From Paracoccus shanxieyensis (GTDB lineage: Bacteria; Pseudomonadota; Alphaproteobacteria; Rhodobacterales; Rhodobacteraceae): DNA of 64,000 bases. Made by a program: the position numbers and the translations under genes. Below the pieces are notes generated by a model. That model made no database searches. It saw only the letters and a program-made list of their open reading frames with translations, and had not been told where the DNA came from. The stretch covers positions 62,001-126,000 of the forward strand of contig NZ_WMII01000002.1 in NCBI RefSeq assembly GCF_009711265.1, read 5' to 3'. Positions within the stretch are counted from its first letter, which is position 1. Each line of letters opens with the position of its first letter. Below are positions 22,488-33,259 of this stretch, piece by piece.

Positions 22488-22502
22488 ATAACCATGGGTT
22501 AT
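22488..22502. promoter_or_regulatory. Perfect inverted repeat overlapping the oxyR start codon
   Basis: ATAACC-ATG-GGTTAT is a perfect 15-bp palindrome whose last two bases are the first two of the oxyR ATG (22501). LysR-type regulators commonly repress their own genes by binding imperfect palindromes near the start, so this is a candidate autoregulatory operator. It is shorter than a full OxyR site. Confidence 0.4.
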
Positions 22503-23424
22503 GAGCTTCACCCTGCGCCAGATCGCCTATTTCCTTGCCGTCGCCCGGCTGCGCAACTTTGGCCGCGCCGCCGAGGCCAGCCATGTCTCGCAACCCGGCC
22601 TGTCCAGCCAGATCGCCCAGCTTGAAGGCCGGCTGGGGGGCGCGCTGTTTGAACGCGGCGCGGGCAGCGGTCCGGTGCGGCTGACCGCCTTGGGCGAACG
22701 CCTGCTGCCCGCCGCGCAGGAACTGATGGACAATGCGCAGCGGCTGGAGGCCATGGCCCGCGCCGGGCGCGAACCCTTGTCGGGGCGGCTGCGGCTGGCG
22801 ATCATCCCGACCGTCGCGCCTTATCTGATCCCGCATCTGGTGCCTGCGCTGCGCGAGGCGCATCCGGCGCTGGATCTGGAACTGCATGAGGTCGTGACCG
22901 ACGATCTGCTGGCGGGCGTCGCCGCGCATCGCTTCGATGCCGGGCTGATGGCCCTGCCCACCGGCATGGCGGGGATCGAGGCCGAACCCGTGCTGCGCGA
23001 TGCCTTTCTGATCGCCATGTCCGGCGATGACACGACATATCTGTCCGGCCCCGCGCGTCCCGAAAGCCTTGCGGTCGAACGTCTGCTGCTGCTGGCCGAA
23101 GGGCATTGTCTGCGCGATCAGGCGCTGGAGGTCTGCGGCTTGCGCAGCGCCCGGCGCAAGCTGAACCTTGAAGCGGCCTCGATGGCCACGCTGATGCGGA
23201 TGGTCGCCAGTGGCATGGGGATGACGCTGATCCCGGAACTGGCGCTGCCCGAGGAAAACCGCGACGGACGCCTGCGGATCGTGCCCTTTGCCGCGCCTGC
23301 GCCGTCGCGCGATCTGGCGGTGGTCTGGCGGGCCAAGGCCGAGGCGGGCACGGATGCGCGGGCGCTGGCCGGGGTGATCCGTGGCCTTGCGCCCGTGCTG
23401 GGGGTGCAGCCGATCAGCCGTTGA
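22501..23424 (+). CDS. oxyR: Hydrogen peroxide-sensing regulator OxyR (LysR family)
   Basis: This 307-residue LysR-type regulator has an N-terminal winged helix-turn-helix (FGRAAEASHVSQPGLSSQI, residues about 20-38) and a C-terminal sensor domain. The segment AEGHCLRDQALEVCG places cysteines at 203 and 212, the same nine-residue spacing and almost the same sequence as the peroxide-reactive C199/C208 pair of E. coli OxyR. This supports a true OxyR rather than a generic LysR protein. No catalase or peroxidase gene is adjacent. The neighbours are an uncharacterised gene upstream and the convergent tonB, whose 3' end overlaps by 11 bp. No clear Shine-Dalgarno precedes the ATG. Confidence 0.9.
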   Translation: MSFTLRQIAYFLAVARLRNFGRAAEASHVSQPGLSSQIAQLEGRLGGALFERGAGSGPVRLTALGERLLPAAQELMDNAQRLEAMARAGREPLSGRLRLAIIPTVAPYLIPHLVPALREAHPALDLELHEVVTDDLLAGVAAHRFDAGLMALPTGMAGIEAEPVLRDAFLIAMSGDDTTYLSGPARPESLAVERLLLLAEGHCLRDQALEVCGLRSARRKLNLEAASMATLMRMVASGMGMTLIPELALPEENRDGRLRIVPFAAPAPSRDLAVVWRAKAEAGTDARALAGVIRGLAPVLGVQPISR

Positions 23425-24268
23425 TCAGCACCGGCAGCGTCATCGAGGTCGATTGCCCGGTCGGTGGCGCGGGCATCTTGGGCAGGCGCGCGGCCTGACG
23501 GCTGATCGCCGCATCCATGCGCGGATCGCCGGTCGATCCGGCCAGCCGGGCGCCCGATACCGCGCCGCTGGGCGTGATCGTGAACACCACCGTGACGCGG
23601 ATGCTGTCGCCCCGCCCGTTCAGCCGCGTGCGGCCCATATGGCGCGCCACAGCCGACTGCACGCGCGACTGCCAGCTTGCGATCTGACGCGGGGACGCGG
23701 CCCCGGCATCGGCCTGCGGGGCCGCCGAGCGGTTGGCCTGCGGCGCGCGGACCTGCGTGCGGGCCTGTTGGGATTCCTGACGTTCCGGCGCGCGTTCGCG
23801 GCGTTCTTCGCGCTTGGGTTCGGGTTCGCGCTGCGCCACCTCGGGTTCCGGTTCCTTGGGACGTTCCGGGCGCTGCTGCGGGCGCACCGATTTTTGCAGC
23901 ACCACCGCGTCGGGCGGCGGCGGGAACAGCGAATTCATGTCCGGCATTGGCTCAAGCTCGGGCAGGGGCTCGGCCATGGCGAAATCCGGCGTGGGTTCGG
24001 GCTCGGGCTCGGGTTCCGGTTCGGGTTCCGGCTGGGGCTCTGGCTCGGTTTCTTCCAGTTCCGGAATTTCCTCTTCGGTCGGAGGCGCCGCAGCTTCCGG
24101 CATCGGGGCCAGTTCGACGAAGACCGGATCGGGGATGCCCGGCGGCGTCGCCGCCTCGGCCCGGTGCAGGATCCACAGCGCGCCGCCCAGATGGGCGGTC
24201 AGGACCAGCACGGCGGCCGATCCCCAAAGCGCGCTGTCGCGCATGACGTTGAACCGGCCTTCGCTCAT
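23414..24268 (-). CDS. tonB: TonB energy-transducing protein
   Basis: TonB transmits proton-motive force from ExbB/ExbD to outer-membrane receptors. The 284-residue protein has an N-terminal membrane anchor (about 12-34, ALWGSAAVLVLTAHLGGALW), a periplasm-spanning region with a long Glu-Pro repeat (EPEPEPEPEPEP near residue 80) and Arg/Pro/Gln-rich sequence, and a C-terminal domain (about 200-284) with RMDAAISRQAARLPKMPAPP and VVFTITPSGAVSGARL. The GATE-YP motif of enteric TonB is not evident, as in many alphaproteobacterial forms. It is last in the exbB-exbD-tonB series and overlaps exbD by 4 bp. Confidence 0.9.
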   Translation of the reverse strand: MSEGRFNVMRDSALWGSAAVLVLTAHLGGALWILHRAEAATPPGIPDPVFVELAPMPEAAAPPTEEEIPELEETEPEPQPEPEPEPEPEPEPTPDFAMAEPLPELEPMPDMNSLFPPPPDAVVLQKSVRPQQRPERPKEPEPEVAQREPEPKREERRERAPERQESQQARTQVRAPQANRSAAPQADAGAASPRQIASWQSRVQSAVARHMGRTRLNGRGDSIRVTVVFTITPSGAVSGARLAGSTGDPRMDAAISRQAARLPKMPAPPTGQSTSMTLPVLING

Positions 24269-24792
24269 GGTGCGGGTGCTCCTGTGGCAGGCGTGGCGGG
24301 GGCGGGGGCTGCGGCGGGGGCAGCAGGCGCCGTTGCGGGCTGCGTGCCCACGGTCGGCGCGATGCCGCCATTCGATGCCGCTTCCAGACCGACCAGCGCG
24401 ATCTTCAGATAGCCCGTCTCGCGCAGGGTGTTCATCACGCCCATCAGGTCGCCATAGGTCACGGCCTTGTCGGCGCGCAGGAAGATGCGCTGTTCGCGGT
24501 CGTTGTTGGTGGCCTGCGCCAGCGTCGCCGCCAGCGCCCCCGGCGCGATGTCGTCATTGCCAAGCGCCAGCGTCAGGTCGGGCTTGACGGTGATATAGAC
24601 CGGCTGATCGGGACGCTGCGCCGGCACCGCGTTCGAGACCGGCAGATCCACATTCACGTCCACCGTTGCCAGCGGTGCCGCCACCATGAAGATGATCAGC
24701 AGCACCAGCATCACGTCGATAAAGGGCGTGACGTTGATTTCGTGGTTTTCGGGCAGGTCGTCGCCGCCGCCCTCGCGGATACCTCCGGCCAT
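24265..24792 (-). CDS. exbD: ExbD proton channel component
   Basis: ExbD is the single-span partner of ExbB that couples proton flow to TonB. The 175-residue product shows the family start HEINVTPFIDVMLVLLIIFM with the essential membrane Asp, a periplasmic domain containing ADKAVTYGDLMGVMNTLRE, and an unusual C-terminal tail of about 30 residues made mostly of Ala, Pro and Thr (ATAPAAPAAAPAPATPATG). Canonical ExbD is about 140 residues, so the tail is an extension. Only 3 bp separate it from the exbB stop. Confidence 0.92.
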   Translation of the reverse strand: MAGGIREGGGDDLPENHEINVTPFIDVMLVLLIIFMVAAPLATVDVNVDLPVSNAVPAQRPDQPVYITVKPDLTLALGNDDIAPGALAATLAQATNNDREQRIFLRADKAVTYGDLMGVMNTLRETGYLKIALVGLEAASNGGIAPTVGTQPATAPAAPAAAPAPATPATGAPAP

Positions 24793-24795
24793 GGA

Positions 24796-26034
24796 TCAGA
24801 CCTCCGAACGGGTGCCGCGAAAGTCCAGATCGCGGCTGACAAGACGGCGCACCCCGGCCGAGGCATTGGCAAGGCGCAGCCTGTAGCCGGTGATGGCGCG
24901 GGCAAAGACGTTATAGATGACGACGGCGGGAATGGCCGCGACCAGACCGATGGCGGTGGCCAGCAGCGCCTCGGCGATGCCGGGGGCCACGACGGCAAGG
25001 TTCGTGGTCTGGCTTTCGGAAATGCCGATGAAGCTGTTCATGATGCCCCAGACCGTGCCGAACAGACCCACGAAAGGCGCGGTCGAGCCGATGGTGGCCA
25101 GAACGCCGGTCCCGCGACCCATGGTGCGGCTGGCGCTGGCCTCGATCCGGTCCAGATGGCTGTCGACGCGCTCTTTCAGGCCGCTGTCGCCTGCCACGGC
25201 CAGCGCCGGGGCCGAGCGGTCGTATTCGCTGGCGGCGGTGCGGATCATGCGCGACACGGGATCGCGGCGATTGCCGATCGAGGACAGGGCGGCAGGCAGG
25301 CTGCCCGCGTTTTCGATGCGGCGGATGCCATTGGCGACGCGGCGCTGTGCATTGCCCAGCTCCAGCAGTTTGGCGACCAGCACGGTCCATGTCACGATCG
25401 AGGCAAAGATCAGCCCCAGCATCACGCCCTTGACCACCCAGTCGGCGGCCCAGAACATGCCCATGGGCGACAGGTCATGCGGCAGGTTCGGGTCGCGTTC
25501 CTGCGGTGCAAGAGGCGCAAGGATGTTCTGCAGCATGCTGGGCTCGGGCTCCGGGGTTCCGGGCGCAGAGGTTTCGGATGTTGCGGTTTCAGGCGTCGCG
25601 GTTTCGGGCGCTGCCGTCGCGGGCAGGCTGACGGCGGGCGCGTCAGGTGTGGTGGCAGCGGGGGCATCCGTCGCGGCAGGGGCGGCTGCGGGATCTGCCG
25701 GGGCGGTTGCTGCGGGTTCAGCGGCGGGTGCGGGATCGGCAGCGGGTGCGGGCGTCGCAGCTTCGGGCGTCGCGGGTGCAGGGGTCGCAGGCTCGGCGGG
25801 CGCAGGCTGGGCGGGCGCAGGCTCGGCGGGCGTGATCGCCTCGGGCGCTGCGGGGGTGGGCGCTGCCGGGGTCGTCGCGGGATCCTGAGCAGGGGTCGCA
25901 GGCGCTGCCGGAGCCGGGATTTCCGTCTGCGTCTGCGGCTGGGTTTCTTGCGCAAGGGCAGGCGCGGCAAGCATCAGGCAGGCAAGCGTAAGGGCGGTCC
26001 CCGCGCGGAGGCGCGGCAGCGACATGTGGCTCAT
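24796..26034 (-). CDS. exbB: ExbB proton channel component with Ala/Pro-rich N-terminal extension
   Basis: ExbB forms the pentameric inner-membrane channel that powers TonB. From ATG 26034 (AAGGA 6 bp upstream) the protein has 412 residues: a signal-like segment ending APALAQE near residue 27, a low-complexity region of about 140 residues rich in Ala, Pro, Thr and Glu, then the MotA/TolQ/ExbB domain with three membrane helices (GVMLGLIFASIVTWTVLVA, the GTVWGIMNSFIGI segment and GLVAAIPAVVIYNVFA). An ATG at 26058 would add 8 residues before the signal segment. Long N-terminal extensions occur in some ExbB proteins, but this one is extreme in composition. Confidence 0.9.
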   Translation of the reverse strand: MSHMSLPRLRAGTALTLACLMLAAPALAQETQPQTQTEIPAPAAPATPAQDPATTPAAPTPAAPEAITPAEPAPAQPAPAEPATPAPATPEAATPAPAADPAPAAEPAATAPADPAAAPAATDAPAATTPDAPAVSLPATAAPETATPETATSETSAPGTPEPEPSMLQNILAPLAPQERDPNLPHDLSPMGMFWAADWVVKGVMLGLIFASIVTWTVLVAKLLELGNAQRRVANGIRRIENAGSLPAALSSIGNRRDPVSRMIRTAASEYDRSAPALAVAGDSGLKERVDSHLDRIEASASRTMGRGTGVLATIGSTAPFVGLFGTVWGIMNSFIGISESQTTNLAVVAPGIAEALLATAIGLVAAIPAVVIYNVFARAITGYRLRLANASAGVRRLVSRDLDFRGTRSEV

Positions 26035-26132
26035 GGTGGTCCTTCGTGTCTTCGACATGTGTCTGTCCGCCTCGGGCTTGCACGGGGCCGGAAAAGGGCT
26101 CGACCACCGCCTGGCTGCGGGTTTACGCGCCG

Positions 26133-26161
26133 GGTATCGAACGTCGGGGTAAAATTGTCAA
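26133..26161 (-). promoter_or_regulatory. Candidate exbB-exbD-tonB promoter
   Basis: On the minus strand a consensus -35 TTGACA (26156-26161) is followed after 17 bp by GATACC (26133-26138), about 100 bp before the exbB start. The surrounding AT-rich sequence is similar to that upstream of the haem receptor gene: TTGACAATTTTA here and TTGACAGATTTA there. A shared regulator is possible. Confidence 0.4.
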
Positions 26162-26187
26162 CTATAGCAGGGGCATTATTGGACGCG

Positions 26188-27222
26188 TCAGGCCGTCCAA
26201 TAGCCCGCAAGATGAGTGCGCGCCTTGTCATGCCCCAATTCGTTGAGGATCAGCTTGCGCAAGGCGGTGATTTTCGTCTTTTCCGACGCCATCCACAGGT
26301 AAGTCTCGGCTGTGGGGGGCTTTTCGGCAAGGATCCGGCCAAGCTGCGCCTCGTCCTTGGGCAGGTGAATCACCTGCAGCCCGGCATGCGGCGGCAGCGG
26401 ATAATCGTCGCGCGTTCCCAGCAGATAGACCTGCCCCGTCGCATCGGGCCGAAGCTGCATCATCCGGGCAAGGGCGGGATAGGCGGTTTCATCGCCTGCC
26501 AGAATCAGCTGCGCGGCTGCGGGAATGCCGCCGCCGCCCGGACCGGACAGGCCGATCCGGCGACCTTCGGGATTGGCGCGCGCCCATTCCGTCACGCGCC
26601 CGCCGTCATGGACAAAGATGTCGGTATCCAGCCAGCCCGCCTCAAGGTCGATATGGCGCACGGTATAGGCCGGGCGGTGCAGCGCCTTCGCCCCCGAGGG
26701 CCAGACGGTCTGGCCATTTTCGGCAATGCGCGGCCATTCGGGCGTGGAATCGCCCTCGGGGGGCAGAACCAGACGGAAATGGATCGAATCCTCGGTCGCC
26801 AGCCGCGCAAGGTTGGGTGCGTGCAGGCGCAGGCGGATGAAATCCTGCGCGATGCGCTGCGCCTGTCCGACGCGGGCAAAGCTGAAATAGGGCGGGATCT
26901 TGCCCGCATCGGCCAAGGACGACCAGCGCATGGCGCGGGCCTTGTCCGGCAGGATCTCGGCCAGATGATAGACGATGGTTTCCTGCAGCGAAAACAGCCA
27001 CTCGGCCCGATGCGCGCGGGCAAAGATCAGCACGTCGTCGCCGCGCTTCTTGGCGCCGAATTCGCCCATCTGGGTTTCGCACCATGTCGAGCGGCCATGG
27101 CCTTCGTGCAGGTCCAGCCCGTGTTCGTCCGCCTCATGGCGCAGCATCTGGTCCACCACGGCGAAGTCGGTGGCGGGCAGCATGGCTTCGGACTGGTATT
27201 CGGGCAGTTCGGTGACGCGCAT
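26188..27222 (-). CDS. Siderophore-interacting FAD-binding reductase with N-terminal DUF2218-like domain
   Basis: The 344-residue protein has two parts. Residues 1-100 (HEADEHGLDLHEGHGRSTW, MGEFGAKKRGDDVLIFA) resemble DUF2218, a small domain often found beside siderophore reductases. Residues about 110-344 form a ViuB-like siderophore-interacting protein with the FAD-binding PAYTVRHID, the glycine-rich PGGGGIPAA and the NAD(P)H-domain GDETAYPALARM. Such enzymes release iron from ferric siderophores by reduction in the cytoplasm. Good Shine-Dalgarno GGAGGCC precedes the ATG. Two terminators lie between it and the upstream haem receptor gene, so it is either read through or uses its own weak promoter. 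Confidence 0.88.
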   Translation of the reverse strand: MRVTELPEYQSEAMLPATDFAVVDQMLRHEADEHGLDLHEGHGRSTWCETQMGEFGAKKRGDDVLIFARAHRAEWLFSLQETIVYHLAEILPDKARAMRWSSLADAGKIPPYFSFARVGQAQRIAQDFIRLRLHAPNLARLATEDSIHFRLVLPPEGDSTPEWPRIAENGQTVWPSGAKALHRPAYTVRHIDLEAGWLDTDIFVHDGGRVTEWARANPEGRRIGLSGPGGGGIPAAAQLILAGDETAYPALARMMQLRPDATGQVYLLGTRDDYPLPPHAGLQVIHLPKDEAQLGRILAEKPPTAETYLWMASEKTKITALRKLILNELGHDKARTHLAGYWTA

Positions 27223-27337: not shown

Positions 27338-29368
27338 CTAGAAGCTGCGCGAGACCGAGAGCTTGAAATTCCGGCCCGGAGCCGGTCCGCTGACCCAGCT
27401 TGCGGGCGTGTAGTCGCGGTCGGTGACGTTATCGACACCCATGTGGAATTCGACCCCCGCCAACTGGCCCTGCTGGGGCGCATAGGTGGCGAAGATGTCG
27501 TGGACGCCATAGCCGCCGCGATGATCGCCATCGGGCTTGTCGCGGCCCGCAGCCAGCGTGCTGCGCGCGCCGATGCGCCATGCGTCCGTTGCCTCATAGA
27601 CCGCCGACAGCGTCAGGCGGTCATTGGGCAGCGAATTCAGATCGGTGCCGTCCTGATCCTTGCCCTCGACGACCGAGACCGCCGCGCCCAGATCCCAGCG
27701 GCCGACGGCATAGCTGGCCTCGATCTCGCCGCCGCGCAGATAGGCTTTGTCGATATTGGTGTAATAGGCCATCGGCCCGTCGCCCGAGCGGGCGATCATG
27801 TCGTCGATATGGTTGCGGAACAGCGTCAGCTTGAGCACCGCCTCATCGCCATCGGCCAGCAGCGAGGTGCCGCGATACGAGGTGCCGATTTCAAGGTTCT
27901 TGCCCTTTTCGTCCTTCAGGTTCGGATTGGGCGCCGTCACCATCGAGCCGTCGTAAAGTTCATCCACCGACGGGATGCGGTTCACGAAGGCGACCGAACC
28001 AAAGACCGACCATTGCTCGTTCAGGCGATAGATCGCGGCGACCTGCGGCTCGACGGCCTCGAAGTCGCGGTCCTGCGCATCGAAGCTGACCGAATCCTTC
28101 GGCTCGGCGCGCTGGCGTTCATAGCGCAAGCCGCTGTTCACGGTCAGATTGCCAAAGGTCACCTCGGACAGCGCATAGGCCGACCACGCGCGGGTATAGC
28201 CTTCGGGATGCGACGATGACGGCACCCGCGACGACCGGTCCTGCTTCCAGACCTCGACCCCGGCGGTCAGGTGATGGTCATAGCCGGTGCCCGACAGATC
28301 GGCGGTATTGGCGACCTTCAGCTTCCACAGGCGATAGTCGCGGCGGCCCAGCAGGCTGTCCATGATCGGTTCGGCCGGATCGTCGCCCTGCCGCACGTCC
28401 TTCATGGTGTTGGAATAGGACAGAGTGGCGGTCAGATCGACATAGCGGTTGTCTTCCGGGTTCCAGCCCCAGATCAGCCGCGCGGTCTGATCGCGCGTGG
28501 TGATGTCGCCCACGCCCCAGGAAAAGCCCGGATAGAACAGATCCTTTTGCCCGCCTTCCAGCTGGTTGAAGTCCTGATCCGTCCCCTTCGCCTCAAGGTG
28601 CTGATAGGAAAACGCGACATACTGGTCGCCAAAGGTCTTTTTCGCCTTCAGAAGCAGGTTCGGCGTCTTCGAGTTCGAGCGCACGATGGTATTGCCATCG
28701 GCATCCTGACTGTCGCCCAGCTTGCGCCACGCGAATGCCGCCAGCGCCTCGAAATCATCTGCCGGACGCCAGCCCATCGCCACGCTGCCAAGGATGGTTT
28801 CGGGGTTCGAGGCATAGCCCAGCTTGGCCTTGCCGCCGAAGGTCTTGCCGTCGGGGATCAGGTCGCCCGGCTCGATCGTTTCCATCGCGATGACGCCCCC
28901 CAGCGCCCCCGAGCCATACAGCGTGGAGGATCCCGGACCGCGCAGCACCTCGACCTGACGCAGGAAGTCGGGTTCGACGAACAGCGCGCCCTGACGATAG
29001 GATTCGTAATATTTCTTCTCGCCGTCGATCAGCTGGACGATGCCTGCCTCGGATGCGGCATTGCTGGCCGCGCCGAAGCCGCGGATGTTGAAGCCCTGCC
29101 CGAAGAAGCTGCCCGAGCCGACGCCCGCCACGCCGGGAACCGTCGCCAGCACCTCGCCGATATGGATGGGGGCGATGTCGTCCAGATCCTGACTGCCGAC
29201 GACCGACACCGATTGCGGCACTTCCGAGGCGACCTTGGGCGTCCCGGCGCGCAGCACCAGCGGGTCCAGCACATAGGATTGCGCCTGTTGGGCGGCGGCA
29301 GGAAGGGCGAAGCCTGTCAGGCAGGTCGAGCCGGCAAGCAGCACGGCGGTCAGCGAATGGCGTGGCAT
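27338..29368 (-). CDS. hmuR: TonB-dependent haem outer-membrane receptor
   Basis: This is a TonB-dependent beta-barrel receptor of about 676 residues. A signal peptide ends near LPAAAQQ. The plug domain contains PQSVSVVGSQDLDD and VEVLRGPGSSTLYGSGALGG, and the barrel ends in aromatic SVSRSF, the outer-membrane assembly signal. The loop motif NPNLKDEKGKNLEIG matches the NPNL signature of haem/haemoglobin receptors, and the divergent hmuSTUV operon confirms a haem role. ATG 29368 is preferred because CGGGGA precedes it; ATGs at 29389 and 29395 are alternatives without such a site. TonB, ExbB and ExbD for its energisation are encoded nearby. Confidence 0.92.
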   Translation of the reverse strand: MPRHSLTAVLLAGSTCLTGFALPAAAQQAQSYVLDPLVLRAGTPKVASEVPQSVSVVGSQDLDDIAPIHIGEVLATVPGVAGVGSGSFFGQGFNIRGFGAASNAASEAGIVQLIDGEKKYYESYRQGALFVEPDFLRQVEVLRGPGSSTLYGSGALGGVIAMETIEPGDLIPDGKTFGGKAKLGYASNPETILGSVAMGWRPADDFEALAAFAWRKLGDSQDADGNTIVRSNSKTPNLLLKAKKTFGDQYVAFSYQHLEAKGTDQDFNQLEGGQKDLFYPGFSWGVGDITTRDQTARLIWGWNPEDNRYVDLTATLSYSNTMKDVRQGDDPAEPIMDSLLGRRDYRLWKLKVANTADLSGTGYDHHLTAGVEVWKQDRSSRVPSSSHPEGYTRAWSAYALSEVTFGNLTVNSGLRYERQRAEPKDSVSFDAQDRDFEAVEPQVAAIYRLNEQWSVFGSVAFVNRIPSVDELYDGSMVTAPNPNLKDEKGKNLEIGTSYRGTSLLADGDEAVLKLTLFRNHIDDMIARSGDGPMAYYTNIDKAYLRGGEIEASYAVGRWDLGAAVSVVEGKDQDGTDLNSLPNDRLTLSAVYEATDAWRIGARSTLAAGRDKPDGDHRGGYGVHDIFATYAPQQGQLAGVEFHMGVDNVTDRDYTPASWVSGPAPGRNFKLSVSRSF

Positions 29369-29438
29369 GTGTCCCCGAAGCGTTGTCATTGGCATCAGCT
29401 GGCTTGGGGGCTCGCATCTTGCGCTGCGTTAATTATTC

Positions 29439-29453
29439 TGACTAAATCTGTCA
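29439..29453. promoter_or_regulatory. Iron-box-like inverted repeat between hmuR and hmuS
   Basis: TGACTAAATCTGTCA has inverted TGAC/GTCA arms and fits the TGA-N9-TCA layout reported for the iron-responsive IRO box of RirA-type regulators. On the minus strand it overlaps TTGACA (29449-29454), a -35-like element for hmuR. A second palindrome, AATCATGATT, lies directly beside it at 29453-29462. Binding of an iron regulator here would control both divergent transcripts. The regulator is not in the window. Confidence 0.45.
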
Positions 29454-29515
29454 ATCATGATTCAATGCCCAGCCCGCGTGCCAGAGGTATTCCGCAGAAC
29501 AGCAAGGCCCCGACC

Positions 29516-30544
29516 ATGACACAGCGTTCCCCCGCAGACCTGCGCCGCCTTCAGGCCGAAGATACCGGCCGTCCCTTTGATCTGGCCGACCGACTGGGCG
29601 TCCCCGAGGCTGCGCTGGTCGCCGCGCATGTCGGGCATGGCGTCACCCGCATCAAGGCGCTGCCGGGCGATCTGATCCCCGCCGTGCAGCGTCTGGGCGA
29701 GGTGATGGCCCTGACCCGGAACCGGTCCTGCGTGATCGAGAAGGTGGGGGTCTATAACGATTTCCACGATGGCGAACACGCCTCGATGACCACCGATGCC
29801 GAGATCGACCTGCGCATGTTCCCGCGCCATTGGGTGCATGCCTTTGCGGTCGAGAAGGGGGACCGGCGCTCGGTTCAGGTCTTTGACGCGGCGGGCGATG
29901 CGATCCACAAGGTGCATCTGCGCGACGCATCGGACCTTGCCGCATGGGACGCGCTGCGCCGCGATCTGGCGGTCGAGGATCAGACCGACCAGGCCGAATT
30001 CACCGCGCGCGAGCCGGTCGAAGGCGCGAAAGCCGCGCCCGAGCGTCTGGATGCCCTGCGCCGCGAATGGTCCGAAATGACCGATACGCATCAGTTCAAC
30101 ATCCTGATCCGGCGGCTGAAGATGAACCGCCTTGGCGCCTATCGCATCATCGGCGCGCCGTTCGTGCGGCCCTTGTCGGTCGATGCCGTGCCCGCGCTGC
30201 TTGAGCGGGTGAACGCCGATGCCGTGGGCGTGATGATGTTCGTCGGCAATCAGGGCTGCATCGAGATCCATTCCGGCCGGTTCGAGGTGCTGCACCCGAT
30301 GGGGCCTTGGCTGAACGTGATGGATCCCCGCTTCAACCTGCATCTGCGCGGCGATCACACCGCCGAGGTCTGGGCCGTCGAAAAGCCCACGAAGCGCGGC
30401 CCCGCCATCTCGGTCGAGGCGTTCGATGCCGACGGCGCGCTGATCTTTCAATGTTTCGGGCTGCGTCCGGAAAAGGGCGGCGATGCCGAGCAATGGGCCG
30501 GGCTGGTCGCGAACCTTCCCGCGCTGGCCGAGGCCGCAGAATGA
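29516..30544 (+). CDS. hmuS: Haem-handling/degrading protein HmuS (HemS family)
   Basis: HmuS proteins bind haem in the cytoplasm and in several bacteria help release its iron. The 342-residue product shows the two-repeat HemS fold: repeat one contains VMALTRNRSCVIEKVGVYNDF and repeat two VGVMMFVGNQGCIEIHSG. HPMGPWLNVMDPRFNLHL near residue 262 is a strong family signature containing a candidate haem-ligating histidine. The ATG at 29516 begins MTQRSPADLRR. It is the first gene of hmuSTUV and overlaps hmuT by 4 bp. No separate haem oxygenase gene is visible, so HmuS is the only candidate for haem breakdown in the locus. Confidence 0.93.
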   Translation: MTQRSPADLRRLQAEDTGRPFDLADRLGVPEAALVAAHVGHGVTRIKALPGDLIPAVQRLGEVMALTRNRSCVIEKVGVYNDFHDGEHASMTTDAEIDLRMFPRHWVHAFAVEKGDRRSVQVFDAAGDAIHKVHLRDASDLAAWDALRRDLAVEDQTDQAEFTAREPVEGAKAAPERLDALRREWSEMTDTHQFNILIRRLKMNRLGAYRIIGAPFVRPLSVDAVPALLERVNADAVGVMMFVGNQGCIEIHSGRFEVLHPMGPWLNVMDPRFNLHLRGDHTAEVWAVEKPTKRGPAISVEAFDADGALIFQCFGLRPEKGGDAEQWAGLVANLPALAEAAE

Positions 30545-31422
30545 GGGCGCTGGTCCTTGCCGCGCTGATCGCGGCCCCGGCGGCGGGCGCTGCGGCCGAA
30601 AGCCATCCCGATGCGCAGCGTGTGCTGTCCATTGGCGGCTCGGTCACGGAAATCGTCTACGCGCTGGGGGAACAGGACCGGCTGGTCGGGCGGGACCAGA
30701 CCTCAAGCTGGCCACCCGAGGCGGCAAGCCTGACCGATGTCGGTTACATGCGGGCGCTGTCGCCCGAAGGCGTGCTGTCGGTATCGCCCGATCTGATTCT
30801 TGCCGAGGATGGCGCGGGCCCGCCCGAGGCGGTCTCGGTCCTGAAATCGGCGGGCGTGCCCTATGTCACCGTCGATGAGGGCTATGATAGCGCAGGCGTG
30901 CTGCGCAAGGTCGACGAGGTGGCCGAGGCTTTGGGCGTCGCCGACAAGGGCCGCGCGCTGCATGACAGGCTGGCGGGCGAACTGGCCGATGCCGAAACCC
31001 GCGCCAAGGCGGTCGGCACGCCGAAAAAGGTGATGTTCGTGCTGTCGCTGCAAGGCGGGCGGGTGATGACGGCGGGCAGCGATACCTCGGCCGACGGGAT
31101 CATCCGGCTGGCGGGCGCGCAGAACGCGATCTCGGGGATCGAGGGCTACAAGCCGCTGACCGATGAGGCGATCATTGCCGCCGCGCCCGATGTGATCCTG
31201 ATGATGCAGCGCGGCGATGCGCAGGCCGACGCCAATGCCAATGGCGGCAACAGCCACGGGGCGGCCAAGGAGGCGGCGCTGGCGCTGCCCGCGCTGGCCC
31301 AGACCCCCGCCGGGCGCGACGGTGCGGTGGTGATGATGGACGGGCTGAAGCTTCTGGGCTTTGGCCCGCGCACCGGCGAGGCGGCGCTGGAGCTGCATGA
31401 GCTGGTCTATGGAGGCCCCTGA
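30541..31422 (+). CDS. hmuT: Haem ABC transporter substrate-binding protein
   Basis: HmuT is the periplasmic haem-binding protein. The 293-residue product has a short signal peptide (MRALVLAALIAAPAAGAAA), then RVLSIGGSVTEIVYALG and PDLILAEDGAGPP, typical of cluster A-III (TroA-like/BtuF-like) binding proteins with two lobes joined by a long helix. The Tyr in VTVDEGYDSAG is a plausible haem ligand by position, although this is inferred. A run of Asn/Ala/Asp near residue 230 (DANANGGNSH) is an insertion in a loop. It overlaps hmuS and hmuU. Confidence 0.92.
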   Translation: MRALVLAALIAAPAAGAAAESHPDAQRVLSIGGSVTEIVYALGEQDRLVGRDQTSSWPPEAASLTDVGYMRALSPEGVLSVSPDLILAEDGAGPPEAVSVLKSAGVPYVTVDEGYDSAGVLRKVDEVAEALGVADKGRALHDRLAGELADAETRAKAVGTPKKVMFVLSLQGGRVMTAGSDTSADGIIRLAGAQNAISGIEGYKPLTDEAIIAAAPDVILMMQRGDAQADANANGGNSHGAAKEAALALPALAQTPAGRDGAVVMMDGLKLLGFGPRTGEAALELHELVYGGP

Positions 31423-32489
31423 TGGTGGCGATCAGCCCGGATCTGCCGTTGCAGGGCGATCGCAGCCACCACGCGCGGCGGCTGGCGGTTCTGCTGGCCG
31501 GGCTGCTGGTGGTGGTGGCGGTGGTGTCGCTGGGCTGGGGCGCCTCGGGGACGTCATTGCCGCGCGCGGTCGGTGATCTGCTGGCGGGGCGCGAACTGGC
31601 GGTGCAGGACCGGGTGGTGCTGCTGGATATCCGTCTGCCGCGCGTGCTGATGGGGGTTTTCGTCGGCGCGTCGCTGGCGGTATCGGGCGCGGTGATGCAG
31701 GGGCTGTTTCGCAATCCGCTGGCGGATCCGGGACTGGTCGGCGTCAGCGCCGGTGCGGGTCTGGGCGCGATCCTTGCCATCGTGCTGGGCGGCGCGCTGC
31801 CTGCGGCGCTGGCCGGGGTCTTTGGCTGGTATCTGGTGCCCTTTGCCGCGTTCTTCGGCGGCTGGACGACCACGCTGGTTCTGTATCGCATCGCCACGCG
31901 GCGCGGGCGCACCTCGGTTGCGACGATGCTGCTGGCGGGGATCGCGCTGGCCGCGATCATGTCGGCGGTGGCGGGGGTGGTGATCCTGCGGGCCAATGAC
32001 GCGCAATTGCGCGACCTGACCTTCTGGGGTCTTGGCTCATTGGCCGGGGCGAACTGGCCCAAGCTGCTGGCGGCGGCTCCGATCATGGCGCTTGCGCTGG
32101 CCTGTTCGCCGATGCTGGCGCGCGGGCTGAACGCGCTGGCGCTGGGCGAGGCCGCGGCGGGTCATGTCGGCATCCGCGTTCAGCGCGTCAAGAACCGCGC
32201 CATTCTGACGGTCGCCGCCGCAACCGGCGCTGCGGTCGCGGTGTCGGGCGGCATCGGCTTTGTCGGCATCGTCGTGCCGCATCTGCTGCGGCTGGCCATC
32301 GGGCCCGATCACCGCTGGCTGCTGGTCAATTCGGCGCTGCTGGGGGCGGTGATGCTGCTGGTGGCCGATATGGTCAGCCGCACGGTCATCGCGCCGGCGG
32401 AACTGCCCATCGGCATCGTCACCGCGATCTTTGGCGGGCCGTTCTTTCTGTGGATCCTGCTGCGCAATCGCGGAGTGCTGGATCTATGA
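31422..32489 (+). CDS. hmuU: Haem ABC transporter permease (FecCD family)
   Basis: HmuU is the inner-membrane channel for haem. The 355-residue protein has about ten hydrophobic helices and the FecCD signatures DIRLPRVLMGVFVGASLAVSG, QGLFRNPLADPGLVGVSAGA and GGIGFVGIVVPHLLR, the last holding the cytoplasmic loop that docks the ATPase. The ATG overlaps the hmuT stop by one base and its own end overlaps hmuV by 4 bp. Confidence 0.94.
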   Translation: MVAISPDLPLQGDRSHHARRLAVLLAGLLVVVAVVSLGWGASGTSLPRAVGDLLAGRELAVQDRVVLLDIRLPRVLMGVFVGASLAVSGAVMQGLFRNPLADPGLVGVSAGAGLGAILAIVLGGALPAALAGVFGWYLVPFAAFFGGWTTTLVLYRIATRRGRTSVATMLLAGIALAAIMSAVAGVVILRANDAQLRDLTFWGLGSLAGANWPKLLAAAPIMALALACSPMLARGLNALALGEAAAGHVGIRVQRVKNRAILTVAAATGAAVAVSGGIGFVGIVVPHLLRLAIGPDHRWLLVNSALLGAVMLLVADMVSRTVIAPAELPIGIVTAIFGGPFFLWILLRNRGVLDL

Positions 32490-33259
32490 GCCTTGTCGCA
32501 CAGGATATCCATGTCCGGCTGGGCGTCAGCCATGTCCTGCAGGGCGTATCGGCCAGCGCGCATCCGGGCGAGCTGACGGTGATCGTCGGGCCGAACGGCT
32601 CGGGCAAGACCACGCTGATGCGGGCGCTGACCGGGGAGTTGCGCTGTCAGGGCCGCGTGACGCTGAATGGCCTCGACATTGCCGCCCTGCCGCCCGAGGT
32701 GCTGGCGCGACGCCGGGGCGTGCTGCCGCAGATCGCCGCGCTGTCCTTTCCCTTCACCGTCACCGAGGTCGTGCGCATCGGGCTGGAGGCGCGGGGCGAA
32801 CGTGCCGATGCGCTGATCCTGTCGGCGCTTGCGGCGGTGGATCTGCCGGGATTTGCCGGGCGGCTGTATCAGGAACTGTCGGGGGGCGAACAGCAGCGCG
32901 TGCAACTGGCCCGCGTGCTGGCGCAGGTCTGGGAGCCGGTCGGCCCGGACGGCCCGCGCTGGCTGCTGCTGGATGAGCCGGTCAGCAGTCTGGACATCGC
33001 CCATCAGTTGACCGTGATGCGGCTGGCGCAAAGCTATGCGCGGCGCGGCGGCGGCGTGATCGCGGTGATGCATGATCTGAACCTGACCGCGCTTTATGCC
33101 GACCGTGTGGTGCTGATGCAGAAGGGTCGGGTCGCCGCCGAAGGCCGCCCGCCCGAGGTGCTGACCGATGCCATCCTGTCCCGTGCCTATGGCTGTGCGC
33201 TGCGGGTCAATGTCGTGCCAAGCGACGGGGTGTGGATCCTGCCGCACGCCGCTGCGTGA
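32486..33259 (+). CDS. hmuV: Haem ABC transporter ATP-binding protein
   Basis: HmuV powers haem import. The 257-residue ATPase has Walker A GPNGSGKT at 35-42, the signature LSGGEQQR near residue 131, Walker B WLLLDEPVSSLD and the switch histidine in AVMHDLN. A longer in-frame start at 32450 would lie inside hmuU; the ATG at 32486, with a 4-bp overlap, is the obvious one. It closes the hmuSTUV operon and is followed by a hairpin shared with the convergent aminotransferase gene. Confidence 0.95.
   Translation: MSLVAQDIHVRLGVSHVLQGVSASAHPGELTVIVGPNGSGKTTLMRALTGELRCQGRVTLNGLDIAALPPEVLARRRGVLPQIAALSFPFTVTEVVRIGLEARGERADALILSALAAVDLPGFAGRLYQELSGGEQQRVQLARVLAQVWEPVGPDGPRWLLLDEPVSSLDIAHQLTVMRLAQSYARRGGGVIAVMHDLNLTALYADRVVLMQKGRVAAEGRPPEVLTDAILSRAYGCALRVNVVPSDGVWILPHAAA

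Follow-up and report, generated by a model that had tools for sequence, protein, structure and literature searches.

The window, i.e. the whole 64,000-nucleotide stretch of Paracoccus shanxieyensis DNA analyzed here, contains a haem-uptake locus whose genes are divided between the two strands. The minus strand carries hmuR, a gene for a siderophore-interacting protein, exbB, exbD, and tonB, and the plus strand carries hmuSTUV (Table 1). The host genome amounts to 4.33 Mb in 70 contigs, and the best named relatives of hmuS belong to Paracoccus species, with P. laeviglucosivorans on top at 88%. The hmuT gene starts at the ATG at 30541, which overlaps the hmuS stop; its profile scans were run from 30589, i.e. 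16 residues short. Convergent with tonB lies a LysR-family gene (identified with Pfam; 22501-23424, plus strand), which looks OxyR-like by a cysteine motif. In six same-genus genomes the hmuS frame contains one internal stop, due either to sequencing errors or to decay of the gene.

An earlier note on this DNA had placed hmuR and hmuS 120 bp apart (29396-29515). We revise this distance, because an in-frame ATG with a GGGGA ribosome-binding site, together with the start and ribosome-binding site of relatives at or near the same residue, indicates that hmuR probably starts at 29368 rather than at 29395. With that start, the intergenic region extends from 29369 to 29515.

Table 1 Genes and sequence elements of the haem-uptake locus, numbered from the first letter of the window.
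Feature	Position	Strand	Details
exbB, exbD, tonB	23414-26058	-	TIGR02797 above cut-off; PF02472, PF13103
exbB box TCGGGGTAAAATTGTCAACTA (minus strand ATAGTTGACAATTTTAC)	26144-26164	+	19.6 bits
Siderophore-interacting (FAD) protein, between hmuR and exbB	26188-27222	-	PF04954, PF08021
hmuR, TonB-dependent haem receptor	27338-29368	-	TIGR01785 above cut-off; Pfam Plug and barrel
hmuR ribosome-binding site GGGGA and ATG (first base 29368)	29366-29376	-	GGGG can pair with leader CCCC
hmuR leader twin repeat GCAAGATGCGAGC-CCCCAA-GCCAGC	29398-29422	-	39/46 loci with divergent hmuR
Predicted hmuS promoter	29418-29447	+	-35 CTTGCG (29418-29423), spacer 18, -10 CTAAAT (29442-29447) in the box
Predicted hmuR promoter	29426-29454	-	-35 TTGACA (29454-29449), spacer 17, weak -10 TAACGC (29431-29426)
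Conserved iron box TCTGACTAAATCTGTCAATCA, predicted IscR operator	29437-29457	+	Motif from 61 loci; 31.0 bits
hmuS leader twin repeat CCAGCCCGCGTGCCAG	29469-29484	+	17/46 loci with divergent hmuR, 2/10 without a close one
hmuS, haemin-degrading HemS/ChuX-type protein	29516-30544	+	PF05171
hmuTUV haem ABC importer	30541-33259	+	ATPase passes NF010068, haem ABC transporter model

Between hmuR and hmuS, the sequence TGACTAAATCTGTCA occupies 29439-29453 on the plus strand. The earlier note had recognized in it the TGA-N9-TCA layout of an iron box and had proposed aligning the orthologous hmuR/hmuS regions. We searched for hmuS in 121 same-genus genomes, found it in 63, and read 62 upstream regions, one genome with a split hmuS being set aside. 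A motif was trained from random starts on 61 of these loci, the window's own included and one with a truncated hmuS (L066) left out. The learned motif placed a site 43-91 bases upstream of the hmuS match in 58 of the 61 loci and gave other sites or none in three (L023, L061, and L063); the genus consensus reads approximately TCYKASTAAANNWGTCAANNA. The box scores at least 20 bits in 52/61 loci and is weak or absent in nine, so the alignment does reveal a conserved iron box of the Rrf2/RirA type.

GTCAA is kept in 56/61 loci and TAA in 52/61, against 18/61 for TGA, the left arm of the box being poorly and only partly kept; what conservation this arm shows may be due in part to the hmuS -10. The TGA-N9-TCA layout survives in 16/61 loci and occurs 28 times in the window (10.2 expected in shuffles), which makes it a weak criterion when used alone, and we rejected its counting as evidence; the box proposed in the earlier note stands, but not the layout as evidence by itself. 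A neighbouring palindrome, AATCATGATT, is present at 29453-29462, as had been reported, but occurs in 1/62 loci, namely the window's own, and was rejected as part of the site. The reported overlap of the first repeat with a minus-strand TTGACA (29454-29449) is correct.

The similar element that had been pointed out before exbB is likewise real: TTGACAATTTTA lies at 26161-26150 on the minus strand. Among the best 30 of 121 exbB genomes, ATAGTTGACAATTTTAC recurs with an identical 17-base core in 29 loci, the thirtieth having no upstream sequence. TTGACA in this box forms the -35 of a predicted exbB promoter, with GATACC 17 bases on. In the window, the upstream neighbour of exbB is on the same strand and there is no opposing gene; in two relatives exbB faces hmuS. 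The next best site in the window scores 14.5 bits, below the hmu and exbB boxes (Table 1), and no site of at least 16 bits appeared in 2 Mb of sequence generated by a first-order model. By the motif learned from relatives, both boxes exceed chance. The score of the hmu box is partly circular, since the motif was trained on these loci including its own; the window's exbB site was not used for training, but the training set did include an exbB-type site from one relative (L023).

Beyond the genus, the box precedes hmuS in nine named non-Paracoccus relatives, all presumably Rhodobacterales. No box element was found in four Polaromonas hmuS loci, nor before hmuS in Frigidibacter and Tabrizicola, where hmuS lies behind a same-strand receptor. 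In Rhodobacteraceae, iron uptake genes are preceded by a 19-bp palindromic signal, the Iron-Rhodo-box, which reportedly was first described by Rodionov in 2006.

Promoters for hmuS and hmuR, and with them the putative start sites, were predicted from the sequence and from conserved spacing (Table 1). The predicted hmuR -35 falls within the box's right half. The spacing CTTG-N16..18-STAAA is found in 56 of the 57 loci examined (L023, L032, L061, L063, and L066 not being counted), and a simple sigma-70 scan of 29300-29560 detected nothing.

The earlier note had left the regulator open among RirA, Irr, IscR, and Fur-like proteins. The genome encodes two Rrf2 and two Fur-family proteins. One Rrf2 protein (152 aa) is IscR-like, with a lone cysteine in LLPCPAL; of 19 stretches of relatives' DNA that were retrieved, 16 likewise contain a single-cysteine IscR. 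In the second Rrf2 protein (L002, 1498-1944), four cysteines lie close to the C-terminus, and its gene, by eye, adjoins an apparent aroE; by the curated cut-off it is no RirA. Against that cut-off of 193 bits, the scores in this genome were 46.6 and 43.5 bits, and no protein in the 121 same-genus genomes passed; none did in 14 control genomes either, so this cut-off comes without a positive control. The Fur-family pair looks Fur/Mur-like and Zur-like, and neither comes up to an Irr cut-off: where 150 and 170 bits are required, the better of the two scored 69.8 and 62.6 bits. With neither RirA nor Irr over cut-off here, and with the box persisting in genomes without a RirA-like protein (18 of the 52 boxed genomes), both regulators are disfavoured, and the most likely candidate is the single-cysteine, Rhodobacter-type IscR of Rhodobacteraceae.

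Published work on R. sphaeroides, as far as the accessible portions of the papers go, describes such a protein. Its IscR carries the cysteine in Pro-Cys-Pro-Ala-Val and binds the promoters of iscR and hemP; in an iscR mutant, expression of exbBD-tonB and of further genes with an Iron-Rhodo-box is raised (PMC4618611). It also binds a fragment with GACTATTTCTGTCGG (PMC6956336), which has 11 of 15 letters in common with our box in a comparison made by eye with this one published sequence.

We consider it quite probable that IscR represses hmuR, hmuSTUV, and exbB-exbD-tonB through predicted operators of the Iron-Rhodo-box type. The 21-bp box at 29437-29457 would be such an operator, on which one bound repressor would cover both divergent promoters, i.e. 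the hmuS -10 and the hmuR -35. Under iron-replete conditions, IscR with its Fe-S cluster would repress hmuR and hmuSTUV and, from the second box at 26144-26164, exbB-exbD-tonB as well; under iron-poor conditions, it would lose the cluster and all three units would be expressed. The conservation of the hmuR/hmuS box and of the related element at exbB makes it likely that one regulator is common to receptor, importer, and TonB motor, in agreement with what had been suggested.

Control may not end at the operator. The hmuR leader, which spans 29422 to 29368 on the minus strand, begins with a twin repeat that is present in 39 of 46 loci with a divergent hmuR vs none of 10 without a close one (shuffled flanks, 0.000). 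Of these 10, eight gave no hit and two (L028 and L060) have a divergent receptor about 31% alike; the count was made without L023, L024, L032, L061, L063, and L066. The hmuS leader has a less frequent counterpart, and the GCCAGC-type twins of the two leaders are mirrored about the box. Six Natronohydrobacter-group loci carry both twins. In the three loci of this group that were looked at, a small secreted protein and, as judged by eye, exbB lie opposite hmuS; since the opposing operon starts otherwise there, the twin is not strictly tied to hmuR. Inverted repeats were also seen near the leader 5' ends of hmu loci of the group (L166, L167, and L173, also L169-L171). The twin repeats are absent from all 19 exbB leaders examined, and the pattern precedes one of eleven other TonB receptors of the genome. 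Rfam 15 gave no match at E up to 1 between 23000 and 34000, and no description of the element was found in what was accessible of open-licence papers dealing with leaders of haem receptor genes, RNA thermometers, and iron-related small RNAs.

The linker between the hmuR-side repeats is variable, and its sequence tends to follow that of the hmuR ribosome-binding site: CCCCAAG goes with CUUCGGGG in the window's own leader, and CCCCGUGG with CCACGGGG or CCUGUG with CACAGG in other genomes. The analysis comprised 43 hmuR leaders (without L024, L028, L046, L047, L052, L060, and L066). When linkers were swapped among ribosome-binding sites, none of 5000 swaps was as good as the true pairing for 30 loci less than 80% alike, 10/5000 were for 18 loci less than 70% alike, and 1/5000 for 14 loci less than 65% alike, whereas a control window was negative (2330/5000). 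Shuffled linkers paired as well with the hmuR site in 0/300 cases each. When 11 and 19 loci were tested as separate subsets, split by locus number and not by tree, the result was weaker (124 and 4 of 5000), so relatedness is only partly controlled.

In a 14-row alignment, 78.5% of the cells pair (25/500 shuffles reach this value), the covariation score is 0.154 vs 0.090 (6/500 shuffles), and the number of cells changed on both sides is high (5/500 shuffles), but pairs changed on both sides are as in shuffles (2; 385/500). A shift of the pairing by one column raises such pairs to 3 but lowers the paired cells to 57.9%. The window's own hmuR leader folds no better than shuffles (z 0.89), and over 30 hmuR leaders the mean z of -0.84 indicates no unusual stability. 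For the hmuS leader, a first window gave 13/5000 in a 14-locus subset and 974/5000 over all 54 loci; covariation was rejected here, as a stricter test of pairing with the ribosome-binding site was not significant (453, 1099, and 1400 of 5000).

The linker-ribosome-binding-site covariation suggests, with moderate strength, a second, translational layer of control in the hmuR leader. It is quite possible, if still short of probable, that the linker between the twin repeats pairs with the hmuR ribosome-binding site and that a small RNA or an RNA-binding protein opens or closes this structure. The distribution of the twins, the swap and shuffle tests, and the Natronohydrobacter-group loci argue for such an arrangement; the ordinary folding energies, the weaker subset results, the unremarkable number of both-side-changed pairs, and the stricter hmuS test argue against it, and the twin might instead act at the DNA level, as a binding site lying downstream of the hmuR start. 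Post-transcriptional control is described for the mRNAs of the haem receptors shuA/chuA, by an RNA thermometer (PMC3660397), and of a TonB receptor, by the Caulobacter small RNA RusT (PMC11005374). These systems are likened to ours by description and not by sequence, and the accessible parts of both papers make no mention of twin GCCAGC repeats. The leader-RNA reading adds to the IscR-operator explanation and does not replace it. Together, they lead us to propose, tentatively, a two-tier control in Paracoccus and relatives, in which a shared predicted IscR operator would be combined with an undescribed twin-GCCAGC leader element switching translation of hmuR and perhaps of hmuS.

Binding of the box by a RirA-type protein or by L002, instead of or together with IscR, is improbable in our view. 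The window's own box has the layout of the rhizobial RirA IRO box and resembles TGACTATGRAAGTCA, found upstream of hmuS in five rhizobial loci, and many same-genus genomes encode proteins that resemble RirA without reaching its cut-off (scores up to 135 bits). The annotation of P. denitrificans includes both rirA and iscR, according to the accessible part of PMC9409073. In D. shibae, loss of RirA derepressed the haem receptor gene hemB2 at low iron, although we count the behaviour of hemB2 at high iron, reported in the same partly accessible paper, in favour of IscR (PMC8007024). Against a RirA-type protein stand the preference of the genus for GTCAA and TAA over TGA-N9-TCA and the lack of any RirA over cut-off. 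L002, with an orthologue in 43 of the 52 boxed genomes, might use this site as well, but 9 boxed genomes lack a second Rrf2 protein and 4 lack both this and a RirA-like protein (presence being called with our own cut-offs of 1e-40 for the second Rrf2 protein and 1e-20 for RirA-like proteins). Moreover, the isc-suf promoters and growth with or without iron are reported to be unaffected in a double mutant of the R. sphaeroides RirA homologues (PMC6956336, accessible part).

It is very unlikely that the conserved element consists only of two overlapping core promoters without an operator: TAAA and TTGAC do lie where the hmuS -10 and the hmuR -35 are expected, at a spacing that is almost always kept, but 8 of the 12 loci without a recognized divergent hmuR in the sequence at hand retain a box of at least 20 bits, TAAA and GTCAA recur at exbB, and core promoters by themselves, in our judgement, rarely retain as many as 17 identical bases. 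The box is thus more than the hmuR -35 and is more likely an operator than merely a promoter. As TAAA and GTCAA are both kept at exbB, where the upstream gene is on the same strand, a protein site is the best reading of the part common to the two boxes.

The regulon of the putative IscR operator, as seen with this motif, appears small, given that a site of at least 16 bits was found neither at iscR nor within 8 kb of the suf region nor before any of the eleven other TonB receptors of the genome, ten of which scored below 13 bits and the eleventh 15.0 bits. This last site, CTGTATTAAAACCGTCAGGAA, precedes the plug domain of a TonB receptor; another sequence, CCTGAAAAAAATAGTCAACTT, scores 18.0 bits at position 329067 of contig C1. 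The iscR and suf genes are on separate contigs (C19 and C34). A wide regulon in this genome was considered and rejected: with at most 2 mismatches, GACTAAANNNGTCAA occurs 69 times and its reversed control 135 times, and for TAWWNNNGTCAA the counts are 20 and 24. Because the reversed controls give more sites, most weak sites should be chance occurrences.

The predicted operator has several counterparts among known systems, as described in the accessible parts of the respective papers. With the Iron-Rhodo-box/IscR system of R. sphaeroides it shares the GAC..GTC core, a predicted overlap with -35 and -10 elements, exbBD-tonB as a putative target, and a single-cysteine IscR in the genome (PMC4618611, PMC6956336); unlike in that regulon, the box would here serve a divergent hmuR/hmuS pair, and this motif detects none at the own iscR or suf genes. 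For hemB2 of the related D. shibae, control by IscR and RirA has been proposed (PMC8007024), whereas no RirA exceeds the cut-off here and the predicted operator is common to a divergent hmuS. The hmu cluster of Ruegeria sp. TM1040, with divergent hmuR-exbB-exbD-tonB and hmuS-hmuTUV units that are up under iron stress, resembles our locus in layout, and the accessible text names no regulator or site (PMC5225302).

The box thus appears to be a clean, if ordinary, representative of the known IscR/Iron-Rhodo-box kind. It would tie the haem receptor, the haem importer, and the TonB motor of Paracoccus to one type of iron operator, and it names IscR as a testable regulator where RirA, Irr, IscR, and Fur had been left open. 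Should the leader element prove real, these bacteria would also control haem uptake by a translational switch that a transcription-only model misses.
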